Shown piece by piece: positions 14,593-55,960 of a stretch of DNA of 64,000 nt. The notes under the pieces are model-generated. The model ran no database searches, was not told where the DNA came from, and was given only the letters and a program-made list of their open reading frames with translations. Numbering within the stretch: position 1 is the first letter of the stretch; every line of letters starts with the position of its first letter. The position numbers and the translations under genes were made by a program. The DNA is from Streptomyces sp. NBC_01244 (GTDB lineage Bacteria > Actinomycetota > Actinomycetes > Streptomycetales > Streptomycetaceae): positions 8,866,001 through 8,930,000 of the forward strand of contig NZ_CP108488.1 of assembly GCF_035987325.1 (NCBI RefSeq), in the 5' to 3' direction.

Positions 14593-16521
14593 TCATCCGC
14601 CGGAGACCGCCGCCGCGCCGCCCGGAAGGGCCCGCGCCGCCGGCGTGTCCCCGTCCGGGCCGGCCGCCGCGAACTGGGTGCGGTACAGCTCCTCGTACCG
14701 TCCGCCCACCGCCAGCAGCTCGGTGTGGGTGCCGCGTTCCACGATCCGGCCCTCCTCCACCACCAGGATCAGGTCGGCGGCCTGCACCGTCGACAGTCGG
14801 TGCGCGATCACCACGGCGGTCCGGCCCGACAGGGCCTCGGCCAGGGCCTCCTGTACGGCCGCCTCCGAGGTGGAGTCCAGATGGGCCGTGGCCTCGTCCA
14901 GGATCACCACCCGCTGGCCCGCGAGCAGCAGCCGGGCGATGGTCAGCCGCTGGCGCTCTCCGCCCGAGAGCCGGTAGCCGCGCTCGCCGACGACCGTGTC
15001 CAGCCCGTCCGGGAGCGAGGCCACGAGCCCGTCCAGCCGGGAGCGGCGCAGGGCCTCCCAGATCTCGTCCTCCCCGGCCTCCGGGCGGGCGAGCAGCAAG
15101 TTGGCCCGTACCGATTCGTGGAAGAGGTGGCCGTCCTGCGTGACCATGCCCAGCGTCTCGCGGATCGAGTCCGCGGTGAGGTCCCGTACGTCGACCCCGC
15201 CGAGGCGGACCGCACCCGTGTCGGTGTCGTACAGCCGGGGCAGCAACTGCGCGATCGTCGACTTCCCGGCGCCCGAGGAACCGACCAGGGCGATCATCTG
15301 CCCGGGCTCGGCACGGAAGGACACCTCGTGCAGCACCTCGGTGCCGCCCCGCGCGTCGAGGGTCGCGACCTCCTCCAGGGAGGCGAGGGACACCTTGTCG
15401 GGGGAGGGGTAGCCGAAGGACACCTTGTCGAACTCCACCGCCACGGGCCCCTCCGGCACCCGGCGGGCATCCGGCTTCTGGGAGATCAGCGGCTTCAGGT
15501 CGAGGATCTCGAAGACCCGCTCGAAGCTGACCATCGCGCTCATCACCTCGACCCGCGCCCCGGCGAGCGCGGTCAGCGGCGCGTACAGCCGGGTCAGGAG
15601 CAGGGCGAGGGCGACCACCGAGCCCGCGTCCAGGGTGCCGGCGAGCGCGTAGTGCCCGCCGAGCCCGTACACGAGCGCCAGGGCGAGCGCGGAGACCAGG
15701 GTGAGGGCGGTGATGAAGGCCGACTGGGCCATCGCCGTCCGGATCCCGATGTCCCGCACCCGGGCGGCGCGCGCCGCGAACTCCGCCGACTCCTCGTCGG
15801 GCCGCCCGAACAGCTTGACGAGGGTGGCGCCCGGCGCGGAGAAGCGCTCGGTCATCTGCGTGCCCATCGAGGCGTTGAGCGCGGACGCCTCCCGCTGCAG
15901 CGCCGCCATCCGCACCCCCATCCGGCGGGCGGGCAGCACGAACACCGGCAGGAGCACGAGGGCCAGCAGCGTGATCTGCCAGGAGATGCCCAGCATCACG
16001 GTCAGGGTCAGCAGCAGCGTCACGGTATTGGACACCACCCCCGACAGGGTGTTGCTGAAGGCCCGCTGCGCGCCGATCACGTCGTTGTTGAGCCGGCTGA
16101 CCAGCGCCCCGGTCCGGGTCCGGGTGAAGAACGCCACCGGCATCCGCTGCACGTGGTCGAAGACCGCCGTCCGCAGGTCCAGGATCAGTCCCTCGCCGAG
16201 CGTGGAGGACAGCCGGCGCAGGACCAGCCCCAGCCCCGCCTCCGCGACCGCGATCAGCGCGATCAGCAGGGCGAGGCGGGTGACCGTACCGCCCTCACGG
16301 CCCTCGACGATCGCGGTGACCACGCGGCTCGCGAGCACCGGGGTGGCCACCGCGAGCAGCGCCGTCACCACACTGAGCAGCAGGAAGAAGGTGAGCCCGC
16401 GCCGGTGCGGGCGGGCGAAGGCGGCGATCCGGCGCAGCCCGGCCCGCGAGAGCGGGCGCCGGTCCTGCTGGGCGTTGATCGCGCTGTGGAGCGAGGTCCA
16501 GGCGGTGACTTCCATGTCCAT
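14593..16521 (-). CDS. ABC exporter half-transporter (membrane domain fused to ATPase), likely SoxR-controlled
   Basis: 642 residues from ATG 16521 (ATG 16515 is possible). The N-terminal type-1 exporter membrane domain has six segments over residues 45-340. The ATPase spans about 370-620: Walker A GSSGAGKST, Q-loop VTQDGHLF, signature LSGGERQRLTIARLL, Walker B VVILDEATAHLD, H-loop IAHRLST. It exports small molecules or lipids from the cytoplasm as a dimer. The promoter contains a near-consensus SoxR box with 19-bp spacing, and the predicted transcript starts at or next to the ATG (leaderless). In S. coelicolor, SoxR activates a small set of genes, including an ABC transporter, in response to redox-active metabolites. 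Followed by VOC and dehydrogenase genes. Confidence 0.93.
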   Translation of the reverse strand: MDMEVTAWTSLHSAINAQQDRRPLSRAGLRRIAAFARPHRRGLTFFLLLSVVTALLAVATPVLASRVVTAIVEGREGGTVTRLALLIALIAVAEAGLGLVLRRLSSTLGEGLILDLRTAVFDHVQRMPVAFFTRTRTGALVSRLNNDVIGAQRAFSNTLSGVVSNTVTLLLTLTVMLGISWQITLLALVLLPVFVLPARRMGVRMAALQREASALNASMGTQMTERFSAPGATLVKLFGRPDEESAEFAARAARVRDIGIRTAMAQSAFITALTLVSALALALVYGLGGHYALAGTLDAGSVVALALLLTRLYAPLTALAGARVEVMSAMVSFERVFEILDLKPLISQKPDARRVPEGPVAVEFDKVSFGYPSPDKVSLASLEEVATLDARGGTEVLHEVSFRAEPGQMIALVGSSGAGKSTIAQLLPRLYDTDTGAVRLGGVDVRDLTADSIRETLGMVTQDGHLFHESVRANLLLARPEAGEDEIWEALRRSRLDGLVASLPDGLDTVVGERGYRLSGGERQRLTIARLLLAGQRVVILDEATAHLDSTSEAAVQEALAEALSGRTAVVIAHRLSTVQAADLILVVEEGRIVERGTHTELLAVGGRYEELYRTQFAAAGPDGDTPAARALPGGAAAVSGG

Positions 16522-30652: not shown

Positions 30653-31309
30653 TCAGCCCGCCCGGCGGGCCAGCAGGAAGCCCTGCGGGGACTTCTCCGT
30701 GGCGTCCGGTTCCCGGATCAGGCGGGCCGTCTCGGCCAGGCCCGCTCCGGCCAGCAGCTCGCTGACCTGCTCGGGCGGTGTCCAGTACACGTCGAGGTCG
30801 ACCGGATGCCCGTACGCGTGGTCCAGCCGGAGCTGCCGGTCGCCCGCCTTGAACGCGATCAGCAGGTACCCGCCCGGCGCCAGCACCCGGGCGAACTCGG
30901 CGAACAGCACGGGGAGCCCGGAGGGCGGGGTGTGGACCGTGGAGTACCAGGCCAGCACCCCGCCGAGGACCCCGTCCGCGATGTCCAGCGCGGCCATCGA
31001 GCCGACCTCGAAGCGCAGCCCCGGATACGTCCGGCGGGCCACCGCCACCATCGCGGGGGACAGATCGACCCCGAAGGCCCGTACCCCCAGGCCGTCCAGG
31101 TGCGCGGTCACCCGGCCCGGGCCGCACCCCAGGTCCGCGACCGCCCGGCCGGCGCCGGGCCCGTCCCCGCGCACGCACTCGGCGAAGGCGGCCAGCATGG
31201 CCCGGTCCAGCGGTTTGCCCTCCAGCTCTCCGGTCAGCAGCGCGGCGTAGTCGGCGGCGACGGCGTCGTAGGACGACCGGACGGAGTTCAAGCGCGAAGT
31301 CGATGCCAT
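30653..31309 (-). CDS. SAM-dependent methyltransferase (class I)
   Basis: 218 residues from ATG 31309. Class I Rossmann fold: motif I VADLGCGPGRVTAHL, acidic residue after strand 2 (FGVDLSPAMVAVARR), motif IV GGVLAWYSTVHTPP, and post-motif VLAPGGYLLIAF. The pre-motif N-terminus (SYDAVAADYAALL) is typical of small-molecule methyltransferases. Target unknown. It follows the NIS synthetase by 32 bp on the same strand and could tailor its product or simply be a neighbour. Confidence 0.92.
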   Translation of the reverse strand: MASTSRLNSVRSSYDAVAADYAALLTGELEGKPLDRAMLAAFAECVRGDGPGAGRAVADLGCGPGRVTAHLDGLGVRAFGVDLSPAMVAVARRTYPGLRFEVGSMAALDIADGVLGGVLAWYSTVHTPPSGLPVLFAEFARVLAPGGYLLIAFKAGDRQLRLDHAYGHPVDLDVYWTPPEQVSELLAGAGLAETARLIREPDATEKSPQGFLLARRAG

Positions 31310-31341: not shown

Positions 31342-32949
31342 TCAGGCCCCGGTCAGCGGATTGTCCAGCTCGGCCCACTGATCGCCCGGGACCCCCGGGC
31401 TCAGCCGCATCAGGGTCAGCGCCTTGGTCGGCAGCGGCCCGGTCAGCAGCGCCCGGGTGTCCGCGGTCGGGGGCAGGCCGGGCGCTGCCGCCGCCAGATC
31501 CACCGCGAGCGCGGCGGCCGAACCGGCCGTGGAGCCGAGCGCCCCCGCCACCAGCGACCCGAAGAGCTTGCGGCGCAGCAGGGTCACGTCGTCGGTGATC
31601 AGCCGGCCCGACAGCGGCGGCACCGACAGGCCGTGGCGGGCGAGGCGGGCCGGGCTGATCCGGATGTCGGCGAGGTCGCGGTACACGAGCCGCAGGGGGG
31701 CGCCGTCGGCGGACAGTACGACCAGCAGGTTCTGGCCGTGCGCCTCCAGGGCCACCCCGAGATCCAGGACCCGCAGGCACACCGACAGCGCGAGGCGGGC
31801 GAAACCGGCCCGCCAGACGTCGGAGCGCGCGTACGGGGTCAGCGCCAGGGCGGCCACGGGCAGGACGCGCTCGCCCGCGCCCCGGTCCGCGTACGCCTCG
31901 GGCGGCTCGCGGAGCACGGCGGCCAGGTCCGGGGTGCCAGCGGTGACGGCGCCCAGGGTGCGGGTGATGTGCAGGCGGCCGTCGAGCCGCTCGGACAGGC
32001 TCTGGGCGAAGGCGGAGACCGCGGCGGCCGTCTCGATGGAGTAGACGGAGATGTCCCGCACGGAGGAGGTGAGGCGGGTGCTGAGCGCGGTCTTCACGTG
32101 GGGTCCGCCGTCGGCGGGGGACAGGGTGCGCAGGGCCATCAACGGGTGCGCGGCGGGCCCGGGCCGCAGCTCGTGCCCGTACCCGTTGTGCTGCGCTTCC
32201 CCCTGTTTCACCACGTGCTCGGCCTGCCAGGGGTGGACCGGTACGAGGATCCGCCCGGCCTCCCGCCACCGGTCCGGCCAGGCACCGGTCACCCGGCACT
32301 CCGCCTCCCGTACGGCGGCCAGCCCGAGGGCGACCAGCGGCCGGTGCTCGGGTCCGTACGCGAGCTGCTCGGCCACGGTGAAACCGGGGCGGGAGCGGCA
32401 GTTGGGGTGGTACGGATGGCCGTCCACCACCCGCTGCTCCCATTCCCAGGCGGCGAGGTCCCAGGCGGTGAGGTCCCCGGCGTCCGGGCCGGCCGGCTGG
32501 CCGGCCCGGGACAGGGCGAGGGAGGCCGTGCTCTCGTCGAGCTCGGCGGCGAACTCCTCCCCGTACGGCAGCCCGAGCGCCGCCATCAGCGGGGCGGCCC
32601 GCCGGTAGGGGCGGCCGTCGAGCAGCAGCTCGGTCACGGGGGGCGCGGACGCGCGGGCCGCGCAGAAGGTCGTCGCGTACGGGTCGGGGAGGGGGCCCTC
32701 CAGCCGGGAGCCCGAGGCGAGCCGGAGCGCGAGCGACCCGGAACCCCGCTCCCGGTGGGTGATCCACGGCAGCGGCTCGTAGGCGAACGCCCGCCACAGC
32801 CGGGTCAGTACGGCGCCCCGCGCGCCGGGGAGCGCGGCCGCGTAGGCGGACCCGAGGCCGTCGGGGCGCGTGCCGGCGGGGCCGGTTTCGGACAGCCCGG
32901 CCAGTTCGGCGGCGACGGCCTCTTCGGCCGCGGTGGCGGGGAGGTGCAT
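31342..32949 (-). CDS. IucA/IucC-family NRPS-independent siderophore (NIS) synthetase
   Basis: 535 residues from ATG 32949 (the frame is open to GTG 33045, but a longer start would bury the palindrome at 32978-33000). NIS signatures in order: GHPYHPNCRSRPGF, VPVHPWQAEHV (ATP/citrate-site His and Gln), KTALSTRLTSSVRDIS (triphosphate-binding Lys/Arg/Thr), and LEAHGQNLLVVL with YRDLADIRIS. The C-terminal helical lobe (FhuF-like) has KALTLMRLSPGVPGDQW. These enzymes adenylate a carboxylate such as citrate and condense it with a polyamine or amino acid. Paired head-to-head with a second NIS synthetase at 33069. No uptake genes lie adjacent. Confidence 0.92.
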   Translation of the reverse strand: MHLPATAAEEAVAAELAGLSETGPAGTRPDGLGSAYAAALPGARGAVLTRLWRAFAYEPLPWITHRERGSGSLALRLASGSRLEGPLPDPYATTFCAARASAPPVTELLLDGRPYRRAAPLMAALGLPYGEEFAAELDESTASLALSRAGQPAGPDAGDLTAWDLAAWEWEQRVVDGHPYHPNCRSRPGFTVAEQLAYGPEHRPLVALGLAAVREAECRVTGAWPDRWREAGRILVPVHPWQAEHVVKQGEAQHNGYGHELRPGPAAHPLMALRTLSPADGGPHVKTALSTRLTSSVRDISVYSIETAAAVSAFAQSLSERLDGRLHITRTLGAVTAGTPDLAAVLREPPEAYADRGAGERVLPVAALALTPYARSDVWRAGFARLALSVCLRVLDLGVALEAHGQNLLVVLSADGAPLRLVYRDLADIRISPARLARHGLSVPPLSGRLITDDVTLLRRKLFGSLVAGALGSTAGSAAALAVDLAAAAPGLPPTADTRALLTGPLPTKALTLMRLSPGVPGDQWAELDNPLTGA

Positions 32950-32977
32950 GCTGGGATCCAGGGCCCCGGTCCTCTCG

Positions 32978-33000
32978 GATGACGTGATGATCACTTCATC
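32978..33000. promoter_or_regulatory. 23-bp palindrome between the divergent NIS synthetase genes
   Basis: Interrupted palindrome GATGACGTGAT-G-ATCACTTCATC, symmetric at all but one pair plus the centre (32989). It lies 28 bp from the minus-strand start and 68 bp from the plus-strand start. The arm core GTGAT/ATCAC is AT-rich for this genome. It does not match the actinobacterial DmdR/IdeR iron box (TTAGGTTAGGCTAACCTAA); a Fur/Zur-like or other metal regulator is possible. Confidence 0.65.
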
Positions 33001-33068
33001 ATCGCGGATACTGAAGATCACGGCCGGTGGTACGCCCCCGCGCACCTCCGGCGCTCTGGACGTACCGA

Positions 33069-34724
33069 ATGGAATCCGTGGACCTCAACGCCACCGACAA
33101 CGCCGCCGCCGACACCTACGCGGCCACCCCGCTCCTGAACTGTCTCCTGCGGGAGGCCGCCACACCGGCCCCGCTCGCCGGGTCAGGGGATTCCGAGGGG
33201 GACGGCTGGAGCGCGTACCGGCTGGCGGGCAGCGGACGGTCGCTGCGGGTGCGCGCGGGGCGCAGGCCCGAGCGGCCCGAGCTGGGGACCGGGGCCGGGT
33301 GGCATCCGCTCACCCATACCGAACTGGTCAAACTCGTCTCCGACGAACTGCGCCAGTACACCGGGGTGTCCAACGACGAGCTCCCGGTCGAGATCGCCGA
33401 CAGCCGCGAGACCATCGCCGCGCTGCTGGCCGCCCGCGAGACCATGCCGCCGCCGGCGGACCCGTACGTCCGGTCCGAACAGTCCCTGGTCATGGGCCAC
33501 CCCCACCACCCGGCGCCCAAGGCCCGGGGCGGCGGGCCGGCCAACGGCTGGCTGCCCTACGCCCCCGAGGCCTACGCCCGTTTCCCGCTGGCCTTCCTGG
33601 GAGTGCGCGAGGACCAGATGGCCGAGGAGGGCGGGCCGGCCGCGGCCGCCGCGGTCGATTCGCTCGCGGAGACGCTGGGCGGGCCGCGCGCGCCGGCCGG
33701 CTACCGGCTGCTGCCCGCCCACCCCTGGCAGATCGACCTGGTCGCGGGCAGGCCCGCCGTCCGCGAGGCGCTCGCGGACGGGAGGCTGCTGTCGCTGGGA
33801 ACCGGGCGGGTGCCGGTCTGGCCGACCGCCTCGATCCGGACCCTGTACGTTCCCGGCGGCAGCGGCAGCGGCAGCGGCAGCGGCTCCGGCAGTGGCGGGG
33901 GCAGCGGTGGAGCAGGCGCGGACACAGGCGCCCGCGCCGCCGGCGACCTGTTCGTGAAGTTCAGCCTCGATGTGCGGATCACCAACGACGTGCGCCGGCT
34001 GTGGCGGCACGACCTGCTGAAACTGCGCCGCACGGACGCGGCGGTCGAGGCGGGCTTCGCGGAGCTGCGCCGGTCCGGGTCGGGTGCTGCCTGGCTGCCC
34101 GACCGGGGGTACCGGACGGCCGCCTTCGCCTTCGAGGAGCTCGCCGTACTGGTCCGCGACGGCCTGGCGGCGCACGCGGAGCCCGGGGTCACGCCCCTGC
34201 TGGCGGCCGCGCTGGCGGAGGGCTATCCGGGCAGCCCGCTGGCGGGGACGGCCGACCCGGCCGGGTGGTGGCGGGCGTACCTGCGCCAGGTGGTGCCGCC
34301 CGTGCTGCACCTCTTCGCCCGGCACGGAGTGGTCCTGGAAGCGCACCTCCAGAACACCCTGGTCGCCGTTGACGCCCAGGGCGTGCCCGCGCAGGCCCTC
34401 TTCCGGGACGCGGAGGGCGTGAAGCTCCTCCCGGACCTGGACCGGGAGGCCGCCTGGCAGCGCCTCGTCTACTGCCTGGTGGTCAACCACCTGACCGAGG
34501 TGGCGGGCGCGCTCGCGCAGAGCCACCCGGAGGCGGCCGGCGACCTGTGGCCCGCCGCGCGCGCGGAGTTCCGGCGCTTCGGCGCCGACCACGACCTCCC
34601 CGAGGTCGCCGCCCTGCTGGCCGCCCGGGTCCTCCCGGCCAAGACCAACCTGTTGCTGCGCTGGACCCGCGCCGACGGCGCCGACTCCCGCTACCTGCCG
34701 CTTCCCAACCCGCTGAGGCCCTGA
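33069..34724 (+). CDS. Second IucA/IucC-family NIS synthetase, with a Gly-Ser linker inserted in the core
   Basis: 551 residues from ATG 33069. NIS motifs: GHPHHPAPKARGG, LLPAHPWQIDLV, PTASIRTLYV, LFVKFSLDVRITNDVRRLW, LEAHLQNTLVAV, FRDAEGVKLL. Between the ASIRTLYV strand and LFVKFSLDVRI sits a roughly 30-residue Gly/Ser/Ala stretch made by a GGCAGC repeat (33855-33918); other family members have only a short hairpin here. Acts in the cytoplasm, probably with the divergent NIS enzyme on one siderophore-like product (two condensations, or two ends of a polycarboxylate). The shared palindrome suggests common regulation. Confidence 0.92.
   Translation: MESVDLNATDNAAADTYAATPLLNCLLREAATPAPLAGSGDSEGDGWSAYRLAGSGRSLRVRAGRRPERPELGTGAGWHPLTHTELVKLVSDELRQYTGVSNDELPVEIADSRETIAALLAARETMPPPADPYVRSEQSLVMGHPHHPAPKARGGGPANGWLPYAPEAYARFPLAFLGVREDQMAEEGGPAAAAAVDSLAETLGGPRAPAGYRLLPAHPWQIDLVAGRPAVREALADGRLLSLGTGRVPVWPTASIRTLYVPGGSGSGSGSGSGSGGGSGGAGADTGARAAGDLFVKFSLDVRITNDVRRLWRHDLLKLRRTDAAVEAGFAELRRSGSGAAWLPDRGYRTAAFAFEELAVLVRDGLAAHAEPGVTPLLAAALAEGYPGSPLAGTADPAGWWRAYLRQVVPPVLHLFARHGVVLEAHLQNTLVAVDAQGVPAQALFRDAEGVKLLPDLDREAAWQRLVYCLVVNHLTEVAGALAQSHPEAAGDLWPAARAEFRRFGADHDLPEVAALLAARVLPAKTNLLLRWTRADGADSRYLPLPNPLRP
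33855..33918. repeat. GGCAGC microsatellite-like repeat inside the NIS synthetase
   Basis: Five GGC-AGC or close hexamers run in phase, then decay to GGCTCC, GGCAGT, GGCGGG and similar. The product is an alternating Gly-Ser stretch. Slippage in multiples of 6 bp would keep the frame and change linker length. Confidence 0.85.
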
Positions 34725-34778: not shown

Positions 34779-34806
34779 ACAGGTATAGACCAATGCTACG
34801 TTGGTC
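34779..34806. promoter_or_regulatory. HutC-type GntR operator(s) upstream of the gntR-like gene at 34850
   Basis: AGGTATAGACCA (34781-34792) differs at one base from TGGTATAGACCA, the form known for the HutC-type regulator PhnF, and ACAGGTATAGACCAAT fits the DasR site ACTGGTCTAGACCAGT at 13 of 16. The right part also starts a second inverted repeat, GACCAA (34788-34793) and TTGGTC (34801-34806). Position 44-71 bp before the ATG suggests autoregulation. Confidence 0.65.
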
Positions 34807-34849: not shown

Positions 34850-35659
34850 ATGCCCTCCCCTTCGCGGGGCGGCGGCCCGGCCGCCATGCCCAAGTACCAG
34901 CGGATCGCCGCAGCGTTGCGGCGCGAGCTCGACCTCACCGCACTCACCCCCGGCGCCCGGCTGCCCTCCGAGCGCACCCTCGCCGCCCGCTACGAGGTCA
35001 ACCGGCAGACCATCCGGGCCGCCCTCCAGCACCTGAGGGAGGACGGCCTAGTGGTCACCGGCCGGCGCGGCACCCGCCCGGCGTTCCCGGCCGGCCATTC
35101 GGCCCCGGGCTCCGCCCCGGCCGCGGCTCGCGCCTCCGTGCCGGCGGCCCCGGCCGCCCCCGTACCGGCGGCCGCACCCGTGCATTCCGGGGGCTCTGCC
35201 CAGGCCTGGCTCACCCTCGTCACCCTGGCTCCGGCGCTCGCCGAGCAGCTCGGCATGCGCGGCGGGGAGCAGACCCTGGTCCACCACCACCGCGAGAGCG
35301 GCCCGACGGGCCAGACCCGGCGGCACGCGGTGACGTACCTCTGTCCCCGCACCGTCGTCCGGACCCCCGAACTGGCCCGCTACCGGGACCGCCTGGTGGC
35401 GGGCGTCCGCGACGAGGACCTGGGCCCCCTGCACCACTGGCTGGAGGGGGCCGCGCAGGCCGGCCGGGTGGCGGAGACCATCACCATGACCCGGACCAAC
35501 TCGCCGCAGGCCGCCACCGCGGCCGGCGGGCTCTCCGTGCGCCGCACCCTGCACGACGCCTCCGGCCGGCTGCTCGCCGTCACCGATCTCGCCTTCCCCA
35601 GCTGGGACCGGCTGACCTTCGACCGCTCCCCGGCCGCCATCGGCTTCCGGGTGACATAG
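34850..35659 (+). CDS. HutC-type GntR regulator (UTRA domain)
   Basis: 269 residues from ATG 34850, with GAGGAG upstream. The winged helix spans about residues 14-75 (KYQRIAAALRREL, LPSERTLAARYEVNRQTIRAALQHLREDGLVV). An Ala/Pro-rich linker (90-120) separates a UTRA-like effector domain (about 125-265: RRHAVTYLCPRTVV, ETITMTRTNSPQAA, GRLLAVTDLAFPSWDRLTF). HutC-type proteins bind amino sugars, histidine metabolites or phosphonate-like ligands. The upstream HutC-type operator indicates autoregulation. The divergent position relative to nothing obvious, between NIS genes and the GH20 block, leaves its target open. Confidence 0.88.
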   Translation: MPSPSRGGGPAAMPKYQRIAAALRRELDLTALTPGARLPSERTLAARYEVNRQTIRAALQHLREDGLVVTGRRGTRPAFPAGHSAPGSAPAAARASVPAAPAAPVPAAAPVHSGGSAQAWLTLVTLAPALAEQLGMRGGEQTLVHHHRESGPTGQTRRHAVTYLCPRTVVRTPELARYRDRLVAGVRDEDLGPLHHWLEGAAQAGRVAETITMTRTNSPQAATAAGGLSVRRTLHDASGRLLAVTDLAFPSWDRLTFDRSPAAIGFRVT

Positions 35660-45876: not shown

Positions 45877-46057
45877 GTGACATGACTCACTTCACCGTTT
45901 GCAGAGGTTAAGCGCGGGCAGTAGCGCTGCTGGAGCGGACCCGTCCGCCGGCCGACGACGGCCGGATCGCGGGTGACGGGCGGATCCCGTCGCGCTCCAC
46001 GGCCCGCCGGCCGCACGCAACCGGTGGGCCGTCTCCTGTACGACCCTTGAGGTGTAT

Positions 46058-47131
46058 GTGTCCACGCTCATAGCCGAGCATGTGTACAAGGTGTTCGGTA
46101 AAGGACCCGACAACGGCGCGGCCGTCGCGAAGGCGGTCCGCGCACTCGAAAGCGGCGCGACCGACCGCGACGAGCTGCGCGCCGAGGGAACGACGGCGGC
46201 GGTGATCGACGCCTCGTTCCGCGTCGAGCCCGGCCAGATCTTCGTCGTGATGGGTCTGTCGGGCTCGGGCAAGTCCACCTTGCTGCGCATGCTCAACGGC
46301 CTCCTGGAGCCCACCGCGGGGCGCATCCTCTTCGACGGCGAGGAGCTCACGGCCCTCTCGCCGGCCGGACTGCGCCGCGTACGCTCCACCAAGATCAGCA
46401 TGGTCTTCCAGCACTTCGCCCTGTTCCCGCACCGCGACGTGCTGGAGAACGCCGGCTACGGCCTGGAGGTCCAGGGCGTCCCCCGGGCCGAGCGCGAACG
46501 GCGGGCCGCCGAAGCGCTGGCCCTCTGCGGGCTCGGCGGCTGGGAGAAGTCCTGGCCCGACGAGCTCTCCGGCGGCATGCAGCAGCGCGTCGGCCTGGCC
46601 CGCGCCCTGGCCACCGACGCCGACCTGCTGCTGATGGACGAGTCCTTCAGCGCACTCGACCCGCTGATCCGCCGCGACATGCAGGACCAGCTGCTCGAAC
46701 TCCAGAAGAGCCTGGGCAAGACCATCGTGTTCATCACCCACGACCTCAACGAGGCCATGCGGCTCGGCGACTCCATCGCCGTCATGCGCGACGGCCGCAT
46801 CGTCCAGCAGGGCACGGCCGAGGACATCCTCACCCGCCCCGCCGACGACTACGTCGCCTCCTTCATCCAGGACGTGGACCGCTCGCGGGTGCTGACGGCC
46901 GACGCCGTCATGACCGGGGACCCCGGAGGCCGGCCGGACTGCGGCTGCCCCACCGTCTCCGCCGGCACCCCGCTCGCCGACGTGTGCGCCGTCAGCGCCC
47001 GGGTCCCGCACGACGTCGCCGTCACCGCCGAGGACGGCACCGTCGTCGGCTCCGTCCCGCAGGGCCGCCTCATCGCCTTCATCGGCGACGAGCAACGCGC
47101 CCCGCTGGACTGCGCGGAGGTGGCTGCCTGA
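46058..47131 (+). CDS. Glycine betaine/proline-type ABC transporter ATPase (OpuAA/ProV)
   Basis: 357 residues from GTG 46058, with GAGG at 46049-46052 (GTG 46052 would overlap the SD). The ProV/OpuAA features are the N-terminal extension (VYKVFGKGPDN, ALESGATDRDEL), Walker A GLSGSGKST, signature LSGGMQQRVGLARALA, Walker B LLLMDESFSALDP and H-loop VFITHDLNEAM. A C-terminal CBS-like region (about 290-350) may sense ionic strength. It powers uptake of osmoprotectants at the cytoplasmic face. The stop overlaps the next gene by 1 nt (TGATG), so the two are coupled. Confidence 0.95.
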   Translation: MSTLIAEHVYKVFGKGPDNGAAVAKAVRALESGATDRDELRAEGTTAAVIDASFRVEPGQIFVVMGLSGSGKSTLLRMLNGLLEPTAGRILFDGEELTALSPAGLRRVRSTKISMVFQHFALFPHRDVLENAGYGLEVQGVPRAERERRAAEALALCGLGGWEKSWPDELSGGMQQRVGLARALATDADLLLMDESFSALDPLIRRDMQDQLLELQKSLGKTIVFITHDLNEAMRLGDSIAVMRDGRIVQQGTAEDILTRPADDYVASFIQDVDRSRVLTADAVMTGDPGGRPDCGCPTVSAGTPLADVCAVSARVPHDVAVTAEDGTVVGSVPQGRLIAFIGDEQRAPLDCAEVAA

Positions 47132-50089: not shown

Positions 50090-51424
50090 TCAGGCGTCGG
50101 CGGGGGCGGGCTGGAGGTGGGCCGGGTCCGCGGGGCGCTGGTGGTCGATCAGGGCCGAGGCCAGCAGGGCCGTCACCGCCGAGAGCACCAGCAGCGGCAT
50201 CAGGGTGGGCGCCTCCTTGCCCAGTAGGGCGGCGGCCAGGACCACGCCGGTCACCGGGAGCCGGGTACCGGCCACTCCGGCCGCGCAGATGCCGGCGGCC
50301 AGGGCGGGGCCCATGCCGAATCCGGGAAGGCCGCCGAAGGCGACGCCGATCGCCGCCCCGATCATGATGGACGGGAAGATGGGACCACCCCGGAGGCTGC
50401 CCAGGGCGATGCTCCAGCCGATCAGCTTGAAGACCGAGAGGGCGATCAGCGCGCCCACCGCCCAGGACGAGGGCTCGGCGGCCAGCATGCCGACGGTGTT
50501 CTGGCCGGACAGGGCCACCTCCTCGGGGGAGCGTCCGGTGATCAGCGCGTAGCCGGTGACGCAGAGGCCGACGGCCACCGCGCACAGGACGATCCGCTGC
50601 GCGGAGGTGCCCGTCCAGGCGTGCACGCGCAGGCCCCCGGACTTGCCCAGGGCGACCACGACGCCGATCAGGGCGGCCATCGGAATCCCCCACAGGAAGT
50701 CGCCCGCGTCGGGCAGGCCGACGGCGGGTTCCTGGGGGAGGGTGAGCGCGCCGATGCCCAGGCCCGTCCAGTGCCCGAAGCCGGTGAAGACCAGGGCTCC
50801 CACTCCGCTGGCGACCAGGGCGGGCAGGATCAGTACGAGGATGCGGGCGCCCCCGGCCACGAGGGCGGCTCCTTCCAGCACCATCACCACCGGGATCAGC
50901 GGACTGCCGAAGATGGTGCTGATGGCGGCGGTGGATCCGGCCATGCCCAGCACCGTGGCCAGCTCGGGCTCGGCGGCGCGCTTGGCCGCGCGGATGCTGA
51001 GCAGGGCGAGGCCGCTGCCCATCGCCATCAGGGGTGCCTCGGGTCCCAGCATCACGCCCAGGGGCAGGCAGGCCAGCGCGGCCAGGACCACGCTCAGGGT
51101 CTCGCGGGGCATGGTCGGCGGGCCGCCGAAGCCGTAGGCGGGGACGTGTCCGCCGGCGCCGGCCATCCGCGTGATGATCGGCGCGGCGAGCAGTCCGGCG
51201 AGGGTGAGCGTCGGCAGGCCCCACCACCACGGGGGGCGGGAGTAACCCAGCAGGTCGGGTGCGGTGTGCCAGACCCAGTGCTGGAGTTCGTGTTCGAGGC
51301 TGACGAAACCGAAGGCGAACAGCGAGACCGGGATGCCGATGAGCGCTGAGAGCACGAGCAGTCGCAGGGTCCCGGGGGCGAGGAGGAGCTGACGGAGCGA
51401 TGCGGGCTGTTGCGCCTGTGCCAT
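50090..51424 (-). CDS. ClC-family chloride channel/antiporter, divergent selectivity motifs
   Basis: 444 residues from ATG 51424 (frame open to 51505). About 10-12 membrane helices. The ClC core is recognisable by MLGPEAPLMAMGSGLA (position of GREGP), the helix with GSTAAISTIFGSPLIPVVMVLEG (position of GxxAGF), and RGGPIFPSIMIGAAIG (GxFxP). However, the first selectivity motif GSGIP reads AGGHVPAYG, and GREGP reads GPEAP, so ion selectivity and the external gating Glu region differ from classical exchangers. This resembles the actinobacterial ion-channel subgroup. Transports anions across the cytoplasmic membrane. Convergent with the small Cys protein. Confidence 0.88.
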   Translation of the reverse strand: MAQAQQPASLRQLLLAPGTLRLLVLSALIGIPVSLFAFGFVSLEHELQHWVWHTAPDLLGYSRPPWWWGLPTLTLAGLLAAPIITRMAGAGGHVPAYGFGGPPTMPRETLSVVLAALACLPLGVMLGPEAPLMAMGSGLALLSIRAAKRAAEPELATVLGMAGSTAAISTIFGSPLIPVVMVLEGAALVAGGARILVLILPALVASGVGALVFTGFGHWTGLGIGALTLPQEPAVGLPDAGDFLWGIPMAALIGVVVALGKSGGLRVHAWTGTSAQRIVLCAVAVGLCVTGYALITGRSPEEVALSGQNTVGMLAAEPSSWAVGALIALSVFKLIGWSIALGSLRGGPIFPSIMIGAAIGVAFGGLPGFGMGPALAAGICAAGVAGTRLPVTGVVLAAALLGKEAPTLMPLLVLSAVTALLASALIDHQRPADPAHLQPAPADA

Positions 51425-51550
51425 GAGTGCGGGGCCCTCCAGGAACGTCCGTGGTTCGTCCCAGGGTCGGTGCGCGGGGCGCGTCGCGCAGGGCGGGTGG
51501 GCCATACGGGTGAGGGATCACCTTCGGATCACCTTCCGCCCACGTGCTCA

Positions 51551-51615
51551 AAGATGCTCGCTGACCAGCCATTCCGAGCATCTTCCTTCAAATGGGGCCT
51601 CCGGGCCGCTATGTT
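51551..51615 (+). promoter_or_regulatory. Inverted repeat and candidate promoter for the GH31 gene
   Basis: A 9-bp perfect inverted repeat, AAGATGCTC (51551-51559) and GAGCATCTT (51576-51584), is followed at once by -35-like TTCAAA (51587-51592), a 17-bp spacer and -10-like TATGTT (51610-51615). The repeat sits where an activator or repressor would bind. The GH31 start is at 51672. Confidence 0.55.
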
Positions 51616-51671
51616 GCCCGGTGCATGCCAAAAGGTGTGTCGGCAGTCCGGACCGCACGAGGAGCCGCCCC

Positions 51672-54600
51672 ATGAGACTCATCAGCATCCGCAGAAGCCC
51701 ACGGCGGCGGCGCGCCCCGGCGGCCGCGCTGCTCGCCGCGGCCCTCGCCGTGGCCGGTCTGGCCACCGCCGGCCCCCTCTCCTCACCGGCCTCGGCGGGG
51801 GCCGCGGCGCCGGCCCCGGCCACCGCGGGCAACGCCACCGGCGTCACCCAGTCCGGGAGCACCTTCACGATCGCAACCTCCGGCGGGGCCAAGGCCCGGG
51901 TGGTCGTCGCCCGCGCCGACATCTTCCGGCTCTGGCTCTCACCCGACGGCACCTTCACCAGCGACCCGGCCGGCACCGACCTCGCCCCCACCACCGACTT
52001 CGGCCCCGTGAGCGCCGCCTGGACCGACGCGGGCACGTACTACAAGATCACCACCGGTTCCCTGTCCATCCGGGTCAACAAGACCCCGCTGCAGTTCTCC
52101 GTCTACCGGGCCGACAACTCCACCCTCGTCTGGCAGGAGACGCAGCCCACCTCCTGGACCGGCAGCCAGACCACCCAGTACCTCGCGCGCGGAACCGACG
52201 AGCAGTTCTACGGAACGGGCCTGCGCCTGGGCGAATGGGCGCTGCGCGGCAAGACCGTCCCGATCGCCGTCGACAACAAATGGCGCGAGAACAACAACGC
52301 CAGCCCCGCGCCCTTCTACGTGTCGACCAACAACTACGGCGTGATGCGCAACACCTGGGCCCCGGGCTCGTACGGTTTCAACGCCCCCACCACGCTGACC
52401 CATGACGAGAAGCGCTTCGACGCCTGGTACTTCACCGGCAATTCCCTCAAGACCGTCCTCGATGCCTACACCGACGTCAGCGGCAAACCCTTCATGGCCC
52501 CGGCGTGGGGCTTCGAACTCGGCAACGCCGACTGCTTCAACGCCTCCAACCCGGCCTACCAGGGCGATCACAACCGGCTCCGCCACCAGACCACCCCGGA
52601 CGTCGTCGGCTACGCCACGGACGCCCGCGCCGCCGACATGCCCTCGGGCTGGTTCCTGCCCAACGACGGCTACGGCTGCGGCTACACCGCGCCCCTGAAG
52701 TCCACGGTCGACGCCCTGAAGGCCAAGGGCTTCCAGACCGGACTGTGGACCTCGACGGGCCTCGGCAACATCAACGAGGAAGTGGGAGTCTCCGGTTCCC
52801 GGGGCGTGAAGACCGACGTCGCCTGGATCGGCGGCGGTTACAAGACGGCCTTCGCCGGGGTCCAGCAGGCCGTCGACGGCATCGAGAAGAACTCCGACGC
52901 CCGGCGCTACGTCTGGACCGTCGACGGCTGGGCCGGCACCCAGCGCAACGCCGTCGTCTGGACCGGTGACACCAACGGCACCTGGGACGACATGCGCTGG
53001 CACGTCCCCGCCATCACCGGTGCCGGCCTCTCCGGCCTCAACTACGCCACCGGCGACGTCGACGGCATCTTCGCCGGCAGCCCCAAGACCTACGCCCGCG
53101 ACCTCCAGTGGAAGGCCTTCACCCCGGCCTTCATGACCATGTCCGGCTGGGGCGCCACCGGTCCGACCGCCGGCTACCAGGACAAGCAGCCCTGGCGGTT
53201 CGCGGAGCCGTACCTCTCGATCAACCGCAAGTACCTCCAGCTGAAGATGCGGCTGATGCCGTACCTGTACACGATGAGCCGGACCGCGCACGAGACCGGC
53301 GTCCCGAGCACCCGCGCGATGGTCCTGGAGTACCCCGAGGACCCGGTGGCGCGCGGCAACCTGACCAGCGGCCAGTTCATGGCCGGTGACTCCTTCCTCG
53401 TCGCGCCCGTGGTCTCCGACACCTCCGTACGGGACGGCATCTACCTCCCGGCCGGCACGTGGACGGACTACTGGACGGGCAAGACCTACGCCGGACCGGG
53501 CTGGCTCAACGGCTACCAGGCGCCCCTCGACACCCTGCCCCTGTTCGTCAAGGGCGGCGCCATCGTCCCGATGTGGCCGCAGATGAACTACACGGGGGAG
53601 AAGCCCGTCTCCACCCTCACCTACGACATCCACCCGCGCGGCGCCACCTCCTTCAGCCTGTACGAGGACGACGGAATCACCCGCGCCCACCAGAGCGGAG
53701 CCTTCGCCCGCCAGCAGGTCGAGGTCACCGCCCCCGCCTCCGGCTCCGGCACGGTCAACGTGTCCGTCTCCGCCCCGGCCGGCAGCTACACCGGCAAACC
53801 GGCCTCGCGCGGCTACGAGTTCAGCCTCCACGTGGCCACCGCCCCCACTGCGCTCACCGTGGACGGCGCCGCCCTCACCCGGCTGACCGGCAAGGCCGCC
53901 TACGACGCGGCGGCGACGGGCTGGTTCTTCGACTCCGCCGACCGCGGCGGCATCCTGTGGATCAAGACGGGTACGAAGTCGGGCGCGTTCAGCGTCTCGG
54001 CAAGCGGCACCTCCGTCCCGGCCGCAGACCCCATCCCGGTCACCTCCAGCCCCGTCCCGCAGACCGCCTGGACCCTGGTCTCCGCCGACAGCCAGGAGAC
54101 CGGCGGCGAGAACGGCGCCGCCCGCAATGCCTTCGACGGGAACACCGGGACCATCTGGCACACCGCCTGGTCCGGTTCCGCCCCCGCGCCGCTCCCGCAC
54201 GAGATCCAGATCGACCTCGGCGCCCGCTACACCGCCGACGGTCTCGGCTACCTGCCCCGCCAGGACGGCGGGGTCAACGGCCGGATCGGCGGCTACGAGG
54301 TATACGTCTCGGACACCACCACCGACTGGGGCTCCCCGGTGGCCACCGGCACCTTCGCCGACACGGCGGCCGTCAAACAGGTCTCCCTCTCCGCGAAGGC
54401 GGGCCGCTACCTCCGGCTGAAGGCGCTGACCGAAGCGGGCGGCCGCGGCCCCTGGACCAGCGCCGCCGAGATCACCCTCACCGGCCGCCCGACCCCGCTG
54501 CCCGCGGCCGCCACCCTGGTCAACGGAGCCTCGACCACGTGCATCGACCTGCCGGGCAGCGCCACCACCCCCGGCACCCAGCCCACCCTCTACAGCTGCC

Positions 54601-54872
54601 ACGGCGGCCCCAACCAGCGCTGGACCCTGCAGGGAGACGGCCGGCTGACCGGCCTCGGCGGAGTCTGCCTGGACGCCGCCACCGCCAACGCCGTCGCGAT
54701 CCAGACCTGCAACGGCAGCTCGGGCCAGAGCTGGCAGACCGGCCCCGACGGCAGCCTGCGCAACTCCGGCCAGTGTCTGACCCCGGCCGGCTCCGCCACG
54801 GCCAACGGCACCAAACTCACCCGGGTCGCGTGCGCGACGACCGCGGCCCAGCGCTGGACCTTCACCCCGTGA
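51672..54872 (+). CDS. Secreted multidomain GH31 alpha-glucosidase-type enzyme with F5/8 and ricin-type carbohydrate-binding domains
   Basis: 1066 residues from ATG 51672, with AGGAG at 51659-51663. Signal peptide about 1-42 (RRSPRRRRAPAAALLAAALA then AxA sites). N-terminal GH31 beta domain about 50-240 (ARVVVARADIFRLWLSPDGT, FYGTGLRLGEWAL). TIM barrel about 260-600 with predicted nucleophile Asp382 (GVKTDVAWIGGGY) and acid/base Asp433 (VVWTGDTNGTWDDMRWHVP). C-terminal beta domains (FLVAPVV, DGIYLPAGTWTDYWTG, YEDDGITRAHQSG). F5/8-type C domain about 795-940. Ricin-B/CBM13 repeat about 945-1066 with QRW motifs (NQRWTLQGDGRL, QRWTFTP). It hydrolyses or transfers alpha-glucosyl groups on extracellular glucans; precise specificity is not readable. 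Confidence 0.93.
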   Translation: MRLISIRRSPRRRRAPAAALLAAALAVAGLATAGPLSSPASAGAAAPAPATAGNATGVTQSGSTFTIATSGGAKARVVVARADIFRLWLSPDGTFTSDPAGTDLAPTTDFGPVSAAWTDAGTYYKITTGSLSIRVNKTPLQFSVYRADNSTLVWQETQPTSWTGSQTTQYLARGTDEQFYGTGLRLGEWALRGKTVPIAVDNKWRENNNASPAPFYVSTNNYGVMRNTWAPGSYGFNAPTTLTHDEKRFDAWYFTGNSLKTVLDAYTDVSGKPFMAPAWGFELGNADCFNASNPAYQGDHNRLRHQTTPDVVGYATDARAADMPSGWFLPNDGYGCGYTAPLKSTVDALKAKGFQTGLWTSTGLGNINEEVGVSGSRGVKTDVAWIGGGYKTAFAGVQQAVDGIEKNSDARRYVWTVDGWAGTQRNAVVWTGDTNGTWDDMRWHVPAITGAGLSGLNYATGDVDGIFAGSPKTYARDLQWKAFTPAFMTMSGWGATGPTAGYQDKQPWRFAEPYLSINRKYLQLKMRLMPYLYTMSRTAHETGVPSTRAMVLEYPEDPVARGNLTSGQFMAGDSFLVAPVVSDTSVRDGIYLPAGTWTDYWTGKTYAGPGWLNGYQAPLDTLPLFVKGGAIVPMWPQMNYTGEKPVSTLTYDIHPRGATSFSLYEDDGITRAHQSGAFARQQVEVTAPASGSGTVNVSVSAPAGSYTGKPASRGYEFSLHVATAPTALTVDGAALTRLTGKAAYDAAATGWFFDSADRGGILWIKTGTKSGAFSVSASGTSVPAADPIPVTSSPVPQTAWTLVSADSQETGGENGAARNAFDGNTGTIWHTAWSGSAPAPLPHEIQIDLGARYTADGLGYLPRQDGGVNGRIGGYEVYVSDTTTDWGSPVATGTFADTAAVKQVSLSAKAGRYLRLKALTEAGGRGPWTSAAEITLTGRPTPLPAAATLVNGASTTCIDLPGSATTPGTQPTLYSCHGGPNQRWTLQGDGRLTGLGGVCLDAATANAVAIQTCNGSSGQSWQTGPDGSLRNSGQCLTPAGSATANGTKLTRVACATTAAQRWTFTP

Positions 54873-55048
54873 CCCCGCGGGCGCGCCCCCGTGACGTGCC
54901 CGGCATCCCGATGAGAGCCGCCTGACACCCCCCACCGAGCCCGGCCCGGCACCCAGCCGGGCCGGGCTCAGGCGTGCCGGGGCGCGGCCGTTACCGTGGG
55001 GGCCGCGATCCTCGTACCTCGTACCTCGTACCTTTCAGGAAGGTGCTC

Positions 55049-55960
55049 ATGCCCGCCGGGAAAATGCACGCCGACGAACCCGACATCGACACCGCCCTCG
55101 TGCGCAGGCTGATCGCCGGGCAGTTCCCCCGGTGGGCGGAGCTTCCGGTCGAGCGGGTCGACTCCGCCGGAACGTCCAACGCCATGTACCGGCTGGGCGG
55201 GGACCTGGTCGTACGGCTGCCGCGCACGCCCGGCGCGGCCGGCGACGTGGGCATGGAGCACGTCTGGCTGCCGCGGCTCGCCCCGGACCTGCCGGCCGCC
55301 ATCCCCGCCCCCATCGGCATGGGGCGGCCCGCCGAGGGCTATCCCTGGTCCTGGTCCGTCTTCGGCTGGGTCCCGGGCGAGAACCCCGTGCCCGGCCGGA
55401 TCGCGGAGCCGGACCTCCTGGCCGAGGAGCTGGCGGAGTTCATCTCCGCACTGCACCGGGCCGATCCGGCGGACGCTCCCGCCTCCTACCGCGGCGAGAC
55501 CCTGGCGGACCGGGACGCCGCGACCCGCGCCGCGATCGCGGAACTGGGCGCGAGCGCCGACGCCGACGTCCCGACCGGGGCGGTGACCGCCCTGTGGGAG
55601 GAGGCCCTGCGGGCCGGGCCCTGGTCCGGGCCGCCGGTCTGGATCCACGCCGACCTGCAACCGGGGAACCTGCTCCTCGCGGACGGAAAGCTCGCCGCCG
55701 TCATCGACTTCGGCTGCGCCGGCCTCGGCGAACCCGCCGTCGACCTGATCCCGGCCTGGTACGTCCTGCCGGCCGCGGCCCGACCCGCCTTCCGCGCCGC
55801 CCTGGACGCCGACGACGCGATGTGGACGCGTGCCCGCGGCTGGGCCCTGTCGATCGCCCTCATGGAACTGAACTACTACAAGGAGACGAATCCGGTCATG
55901 GCGGCCATCGCCCGCCACGTCATCGGCGAACTCCTCGCGGCGGTCCCGGGGCCCGAATGA
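55049..55960 (+). CDS. Aminoglycoside phosphotransferase-family kinase (APH)
   Basis: 303 residues from ATG 55049, with AGGAAGG upstream. Protein-kinase-like fold: nucleotide loop region DSAGTSNAMYRLGGDLVVRLPR (Lys position replaced by Arg), hinge WSVFGWVPGENP, catalytic loop WIHADLQPGNLLL (Asp and Asn of HxDxxxxN) and metal-binding AVIDFGCAGLGEPAVDL. These enzymes phosphorylate antibiotics or cellular alcohols such as choline or macrolides. The APH family includes many non-resistance kinases, so the substrate should not be assumed. A 7-bp repeat (CCTCGTA x3, 55010-55030) lies just upstream. Confidence 0.92.
   Translation: MPAGKMHADEPDIDTALVRRLIAGQFPRWAELPVERVDSAGTSNAMYRLGGDLVVRLPRTPGAAGDVGMEHVWLPRLAPDLPAAIPAPIGMGRPAEGYPWSWSVFGWVPGENPVPGRIAEPDLLAEELAEFISALHRADPADAPASYRGETLADRDAATRAAIAELGASADADVPTGAVTALWEEALRAGPWSGPPVWIHADLQPGNLLLADGKLAAVIDFGCAGLGEPAVDLIPAWYVLPAAARPAFRAALDADDAMWTRARGWALSIALMELNYYKETNPVMAAIARHVIGELLAAVPGPE

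Follow-up and report, generated by a model that had tools for sequence, protein, structure and literature searches.

The head-to-head gene pair at positions 31342-34724 of a 64,000-nucleotide stretch of Streptomyces sp. NBC_01244 (hereafter the window; C1:8866001-8930000 of a 10.0-Mb genome, G000) encodes two intact nonribosomal peptide synthetase (NRPS)-independent siderophore (NIS) synthetases, A and B, which form a conserved two-gene locus in Streptomyces. We regard it as about evenly balanced whether the two enzymes each attach an amino-acid nucleophile to a different arm of citrate, which would give an undecarboxylated chelator with a core like that of staphyloferrin B. The case is built on the active-site residues that A shares with a solved siderophore synthetase, on the constant pairing of the two genes, and on related operons that carry the helper genes of a staphyloferrin B pathway.

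Two complete synthetases that stay together

The two genes are arranged as follows:

31342..32949, minus strand, gene B: NIS synthetase, divergent, AsbB/SbnF-like, 535 aa (PF04183 122.1 bits, PF06276 44.7 bits)
33069..34724, plus strand, gene A: NIS synthetase, AcsD-like, type A, 551 aa (PF04183 118.1 bits, PF06276 111.3 bits)

In a Pfam scan, both proteins exceeded the curated cut-offs for the IucA_IucC domain (PF04183, 25 bits) and the FhuF-like domain (PF06276, 25.2 bits). The preferred start of B is the ATG at 32949, from which the product matches protein P0121 with 100% identity across 535 aa, and the alignment of relatives favours the ATG at 33069 as the start of A; the nearest named proteins, among the matches listed, are all from Streptomyces. 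The initial annotation had described two divergent IucA/IucC synthetases with full motif sets, and both points were borne out: the open reading frames (ORFs) are real, both domains lie above cut-off in each protein, and the motifs are retained in the residue alignment. No close identity to a characterised pathway was found, as A and B fall below the cut-off of every NCBIfam model. A also carries a Ser-Gly-rich insert (window about 33853-33950) within a loop whose length varies greatly among its relatives.

The best solved relative of A is AcsD, of achromobactin synthesis (profile E 1.8e-53). The passages of PMC3323832 on the AcsD active site report that E442 holds the second amine of the nucleophile, that R501 and K563 are positioned to read its L-carboxylate, and that R305 is crucial for adenylation. 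When residues were mapped to AcsD via HMMER alignments, the equivalents of these four in A (E424, R465, K525, and R309, respectively) were found in 94/94 divergent-pair rows (93 distinct ones, since one genome appears twice, as L059 and L171) and in 18/18 others, and the equivalent of AcsD H444 was likewise kept throughout. Altogether, 17 of the 18 AcsD positions checked are invariant across the 94 rows, the sole exception being the S279 position. In domain order, A is the same as the type A synthetases AcsD and SbnE, and it shares the nucleophile-reading and adenylation residues with AcsD, its likeness to SbnE being by description; it differs from them in its setting, a divergent locus of two genes that has none of the helper genes of achromobactin or staphyloferrin B synthesis.

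B is more loosely placed among type C NIS synthetases. Its best solved relative is AsbB, of petrobactin synthesis (E 4.4e-17, with an alignment in pieces only), and its best NCBIfam model is SbnF (NF033586, 5e-20), whose cut-off of 900 is far from reached at 71.7 bits. The motif residues of B are nevertheless conserved in 92-94 of the 94 rows, excepting the S279 position (Ser 64, Ala 30) and the R460 position.

With an alignment of A as the query, we scanned named genomes and took the best 80 of at least 510 encoding stretches with their flanks, all of them from Streptomyces. B is divergent to A in all 80, and 79-638 bp separates their matches. Among 150 Streptomyces genomes drawn, the window's own included, 81 gave a B match at E 1e-30 or better. 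To score pairing, each genome contributed a single A row and a single B row, and second copies were excluded along with weaker relatives of 42-50% identity; on this basis, 78 of the 150 genomes hold both genes (77 divergently and one, G023, in tandem), one holds A only (G102, scored so because those weaker relatives were excluded), and two hold B only (in G099, one of the two, it lies at the edge of a contig). Across a class-wide draw, A was present at E 1e-35 or better in 34/296 genomes and 9/114 genera. The dN/dS values against five relatives (0.26-0.34 for A and 0.23-0.30 for B) indicate that both genes are under purifying selection. In the trees, the B proteins of every divergent pair fall into a single clade (support 0.999), unlike the A proteins of the 94 rows. 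The raw correlation between A and B tree distances, which includes shared species ancestry, is 0.92.

A proposed staphyloferrin-B-like pathway and its competitors

Homologues of A and B occur in other actinomycete operons beside helper genes. In the Streptomyces operons L138-L141 and L170, the gene order is B, A, decarboxylase, and major facilitator superfamily (MFS) exporter, all on the same strand and with an OmpR-type regulator nearby. In ten further loci (L142, L143, L145-L148, and L150-L153), an ATP-grasp gene stands together with A and a more distant B homologue (B'), and the decarboxylase was matched in eight of the ten, not in L148 or L151. At L144, A, B', and the decarboxylase are present, with no ATP-grasp match within the stretch searched, and no decarboxylase match was obtained in L149 (A alone) or L166 (tandem A and B). 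The decarboxylases of L138 and L153 have as their closest PDB entries 6knh, 6kni, and 6knk (E 1.4e-90 and 9.5e-80), identified in the relevant parts of PMC7139808 and PMC7857480 as SbnH of staphyloferrin B. As far as the excerpts of these sources go, SbnE and SbnF each couple L-2,3-diaminopropionate (L-Dap) to citrate (PMC3179956), and N-citryl-L-Dap is decarboxylated by SbnH (PMC7857480). The L138-L141 and L170 operons are possible carriers of a staphyloferrin-B-like pathway in their own right. Relative to the window pair, A is 37-42% identical in these homologous operons and B of the B-A-decarboxylase-MFS kind about 40%; unlike the window pair, the operons are same-strand and carry helper genes, and the B proteins of divergent pairs lie in a separate clade.

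The pathways of staphyloferrin B and achromobactin include an SbnH/AcsE-like decarboxylase and a third, SbnC/AcsA-like synthetase, whereas the divergent pair has neither. The 80 flanks of divergent pairs gave no match to an SbnH-like decarboxylase, and a decarboxylase acting in trans was rejected as a candidate, matches in the window's own genome reaching only 29-31% identity. PF04183 occurs at four places in that genome, A and B included; the remaining two genes are IucA-like and DesD-like, so that no SbnC/AcsA-like synthetase was met among them, nor any separate DesD.

In the pathway that we propose, A would adenylate citrate and join one arm to L-serine or L-Dap, as AcsD and SbnE do, its nucleophile being an L-amino acid that bears a second amine or hydroxyl. 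B would then adenylate the other arm of A's product and couple another nucleophile to it, in the manner of SbnF. The result would be a small carboxylate chelator, citrate bearing an amino acid on each of two arms. It would retain the amino-acid carboxylates, since the pair has neither an SbnH-like decarboxylase nor a third synthetase beside it, and it would perhaps be methylated in strains with an adjacent methyltransferase. Export and uptake would depend on unlinked transporters, and iron would be the default metal. A would be transcribed from a conserved -10-like promoter, and an 18-bp repeat over this promoter would be the likely site of a regulator in the window's lineage. The carboxylate-type metallophore that the initial annotation had attributed jointly to the two genes therefore stands in part: two complete NIS synthetases make such a product plausible, and the product itself and its metal are what we infer.

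Several observations weigh against this pathway. B is distant from every characterised enzyme and, because of this remoteness, its acid and nucleophile are guesses. At the AcsD S279 position, A has Ala in 61 and Ser in 33 of the 94 rows. Precursor, export, and uptake genes were not found near the pair. An SbnA/SbnB-family pair, of the L-Dap synthase type and above both cut-offs, is present at C2:227124-229070 (L173), but on another contig of 300 kb, beside genes that look NRPS-like by eye, and unlinked to A and B. As for uptake, a Pfam scan of 30 window ORFs revealed no siderophore-uptake domain; two of these ORFs encode ATP-binding cassette (ABC) transporter components of other kinds (14593-16521 and 46052-47131), and the nearest FecCD permease lies at C1:8827633-8828592, about 69 kb from the pair, in agreement with the earlier statement that uptake genes are not adjacent.

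The product of A and B might instead be no metallophore but an amide or ester of citrate serving as an intracellular metabolite, a signal, or a building block. We think this rather unlikely. It would fit a locus where neither an exporter nor an uptake gene nor an iron box was found, and a housekeeping-like role is suggested by the wide conservation and the purifying selection; however, all the closely related solved enzymes are siderophore synthetases, and homologous pairs accompany an exporter in L138-L141 and L170. Unlikely, too, is a self-sufficient two-enzyme pathway in about half of Streptomyces whose product would open a new class of natural chelators: citrate with two undecarboxylated arms, either bis-seryl or bis-Dap and in some strains methylated, that would serve a non-iron metal or an intracellular role in place of classical siderophore uptake.

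We consider it improbable that the pair is an unlinked accessory locus whose enzymes add or cap units, in trans, for a different siderophore pathway of the cell. A second NIS pair does exist in the genome, a tandem at C1:6893525-6896952 (L117) of an IucA-like gene (E 2.9e-51) and a DesD/IucC-like gene (E 2e-101), and the desferrioxamine pathway of S. coelicolor offers a precedent in its unlinked accessory locus desJGH, as given in the pertinent part of PMC12161575. Like A and B, the L117 genes are two adjacent NIS synthetases, but they lie on the same strand and among different neighbours. The in-trans role is opposed by the full active-site sets that A and B themselves keep and by the lack of any partner gene that accompanies them across lineages. 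Near the L117 pair, we also noted a gene that resembles NrdR by eye.

A probable promoter and operator, and a search for metal boxes, between the genes

Returning to the proposed citrate-based pathway, three elements between the two genes bear on its control:

32978..33000, no strand assigned, exact 23-bp palindrome GATGACGTGATGATCACTTCATC, between both gene starts, lineage-limited
32986..33003, no strand assigned, 18-bp inverted repeat GATGATCACTTCATCATC, overlapping the palindrome, in 17/24 close loci
33007..33014, plus strand, -10-like box of gene A, GATACTGA, common to most divergent pairs

The -10-like box, which is also written GATACTGA/CATACTGA, has the general pattern [CG]ATAC[TC]GA on A's strand. 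This pattern was present in 82/94 rows (81/93 distinct) and in none on the other strand, and shuffles gave a mean of 0.5 and a largest value of 3; the shuffle controls for this box and for the iron and zinc boxes preserve base composition only. In six distant pairs inspected, an ATG stands 5-6 bases past the box, a spacing that, in our own reading, would be that of a leaderless promoter.

The exact palindrome that the initial annotation had placed at 32978-33000, between the two starts, exists and is not due to chance (0 in 100 dinucleotide shuffles). Its proposed part as the key shared operator did not hold up: the 19-bp core is present in just 6/24 close loci, the window included, and in none of the 57 loci L060-L116 or 12 further divergent pairs, so the palindrome was rejected as a conserved operator. 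Allowing up to two mismatches, the core has one other site in the genome, inside an open frame. The overlapping 18-bp repeat is shared more widely, its consensus GATGATCAnnTnATcATy fitting 17/24 close loci, and it too is absent from L060-L116 (0/57) and from the 12 further divergent pairs. Lying over A's promoter, the repeat is a probable operator for a regulator in this lineage. A regulon for it was considered and dropped; 21 places in the genome match at three or fewer mismatches. The next-best copy (two mismatches; C1:8010731-8010748, L157) lies upstream of a gene that looks sigma-factor-like by eye.

Iron and zinc boxes were sought with consensus sequences. For the DmdR/IdeR-like iron box, of which one strand of the palindromic pattern was scanned, the window has no match at six or fewer mismatches and a best match of 8/19, in line with the earlier view that the palindrome is not such a box; matches at eight or fewer mismatches occur in 17/94 rows against 10.6 in shuffles. 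For the Zur box, the window's best match has 6/15 mismatches, and matches at that level or better occur in 40/94 rows against 8.8 in shuffles. This mild excess counts against dismissing zinc, yet it falls short of a site; the best matches across loci have 5-6/15 mismatches, and a clear Zur box was not recognisable. Zinc control, which the initial annotation had entertained, accordingly finds little backing in the window.

A metallophore regulated by zinc or another metal through the 23-bp palindrome is, in our view, very improbable: it could draw on the missing iron box, the Zur-box excess, and a cation diffusion facilitator (CDF) efflux gene (PF01545) directly behind A in the distant divergent pair L154 (10903-12045), but the Zur matches remain poor, the palindrome core is confined to a few close loci, and the CDF gene has no match in the 80 flanks and 14 further loci.

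Neighbouring genes and what the locus means

Genes and a box flanking the pair in the window are as follows:

30653..31309, minus strand, S-adenosylmethionine (SAM) methyltransferase, 218 aa, B's companion in this lineage (PF13649 64.9 bits)
34781..34792, near-palindromic GntR-type box AGGTATAGACCA upstream of the GntR gene, identical in 22/22 relatives having the gene
34850..35659, plus strand, GntR-type regulator adjoining A (PF00392)

The methyltransferase noted earlier behind one of the synthetase genes is there, its ORF starting 32 bp behind B, but it is a lineage-limited companion. In 19/23 close relatives, 38-74 bp separates its match from that of B, and none was found beside the pair in the other 57 relatives. 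Since it is kept close to B while the gene beyond it shifts by up to 3.2 kb among close loci, the methyltransferase may modify the pair's product in this lineage. The GntR protein was weighed as a reader of the 23-bp palindrome; this is argued against by the box AGGTATAGACCA in its own upstream region, and it probably reads that box instead. One further exact copy of the box occurs in the genome, at C1:9127457.

Loci were sorted into lineages (the second and third are not clades in the trees), and neighbour clusters were built on mechanical ORF calls. The window and its close relatives share as neighbours the methyltransferase, the GntR regulator, an FAD oxidase, a transporter, and a histidine kinase. 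Around L060-L116, the neighbours are a von Willebrand factor type A (VWA) protein (matched at 51 of the 80 loci), a 345-aa protein without a Pfam match, and an HxlR regulator, along with genes that we take, from their sequence, to encode an aminotransferase and malate synthase. These conserved flanks were rejected as pathway genes because no biosynthetic logic is apparent in them. Because the neighbours vary by lineage, A and B are the unit that stays together. Farther off in the window, we observed a glycoside hydrolase family 31 (GH31) enzyme with F5/8-type and ricin-type lectin domains (51423-54872) and, adjoining its gene, an APH-family phosphotransferase (54974-55960).

Among the titles and abstract openings listed for searches of open-licence papers, none described the divergent A/B pair; judging from the portions of PMC11734326 and PMC13293324 consulted, surveys of NI-siderophore clusters in Streptomyces probably include it unnamed. 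Taken together, these sequence comparisons indicate that the locus represents a two-gene form of citrate-type NIS assembly, genus-wide and lacking the helper genes that its relatives have. It is small and widespread in the main antibiotic-producing genus. If the proposed pathway is true, staphyloferrin-B-type citrate assembly would be reducible to its two ligases, and a likely product type could be assigned to a recurring, transporter-less Streptomyces locus.

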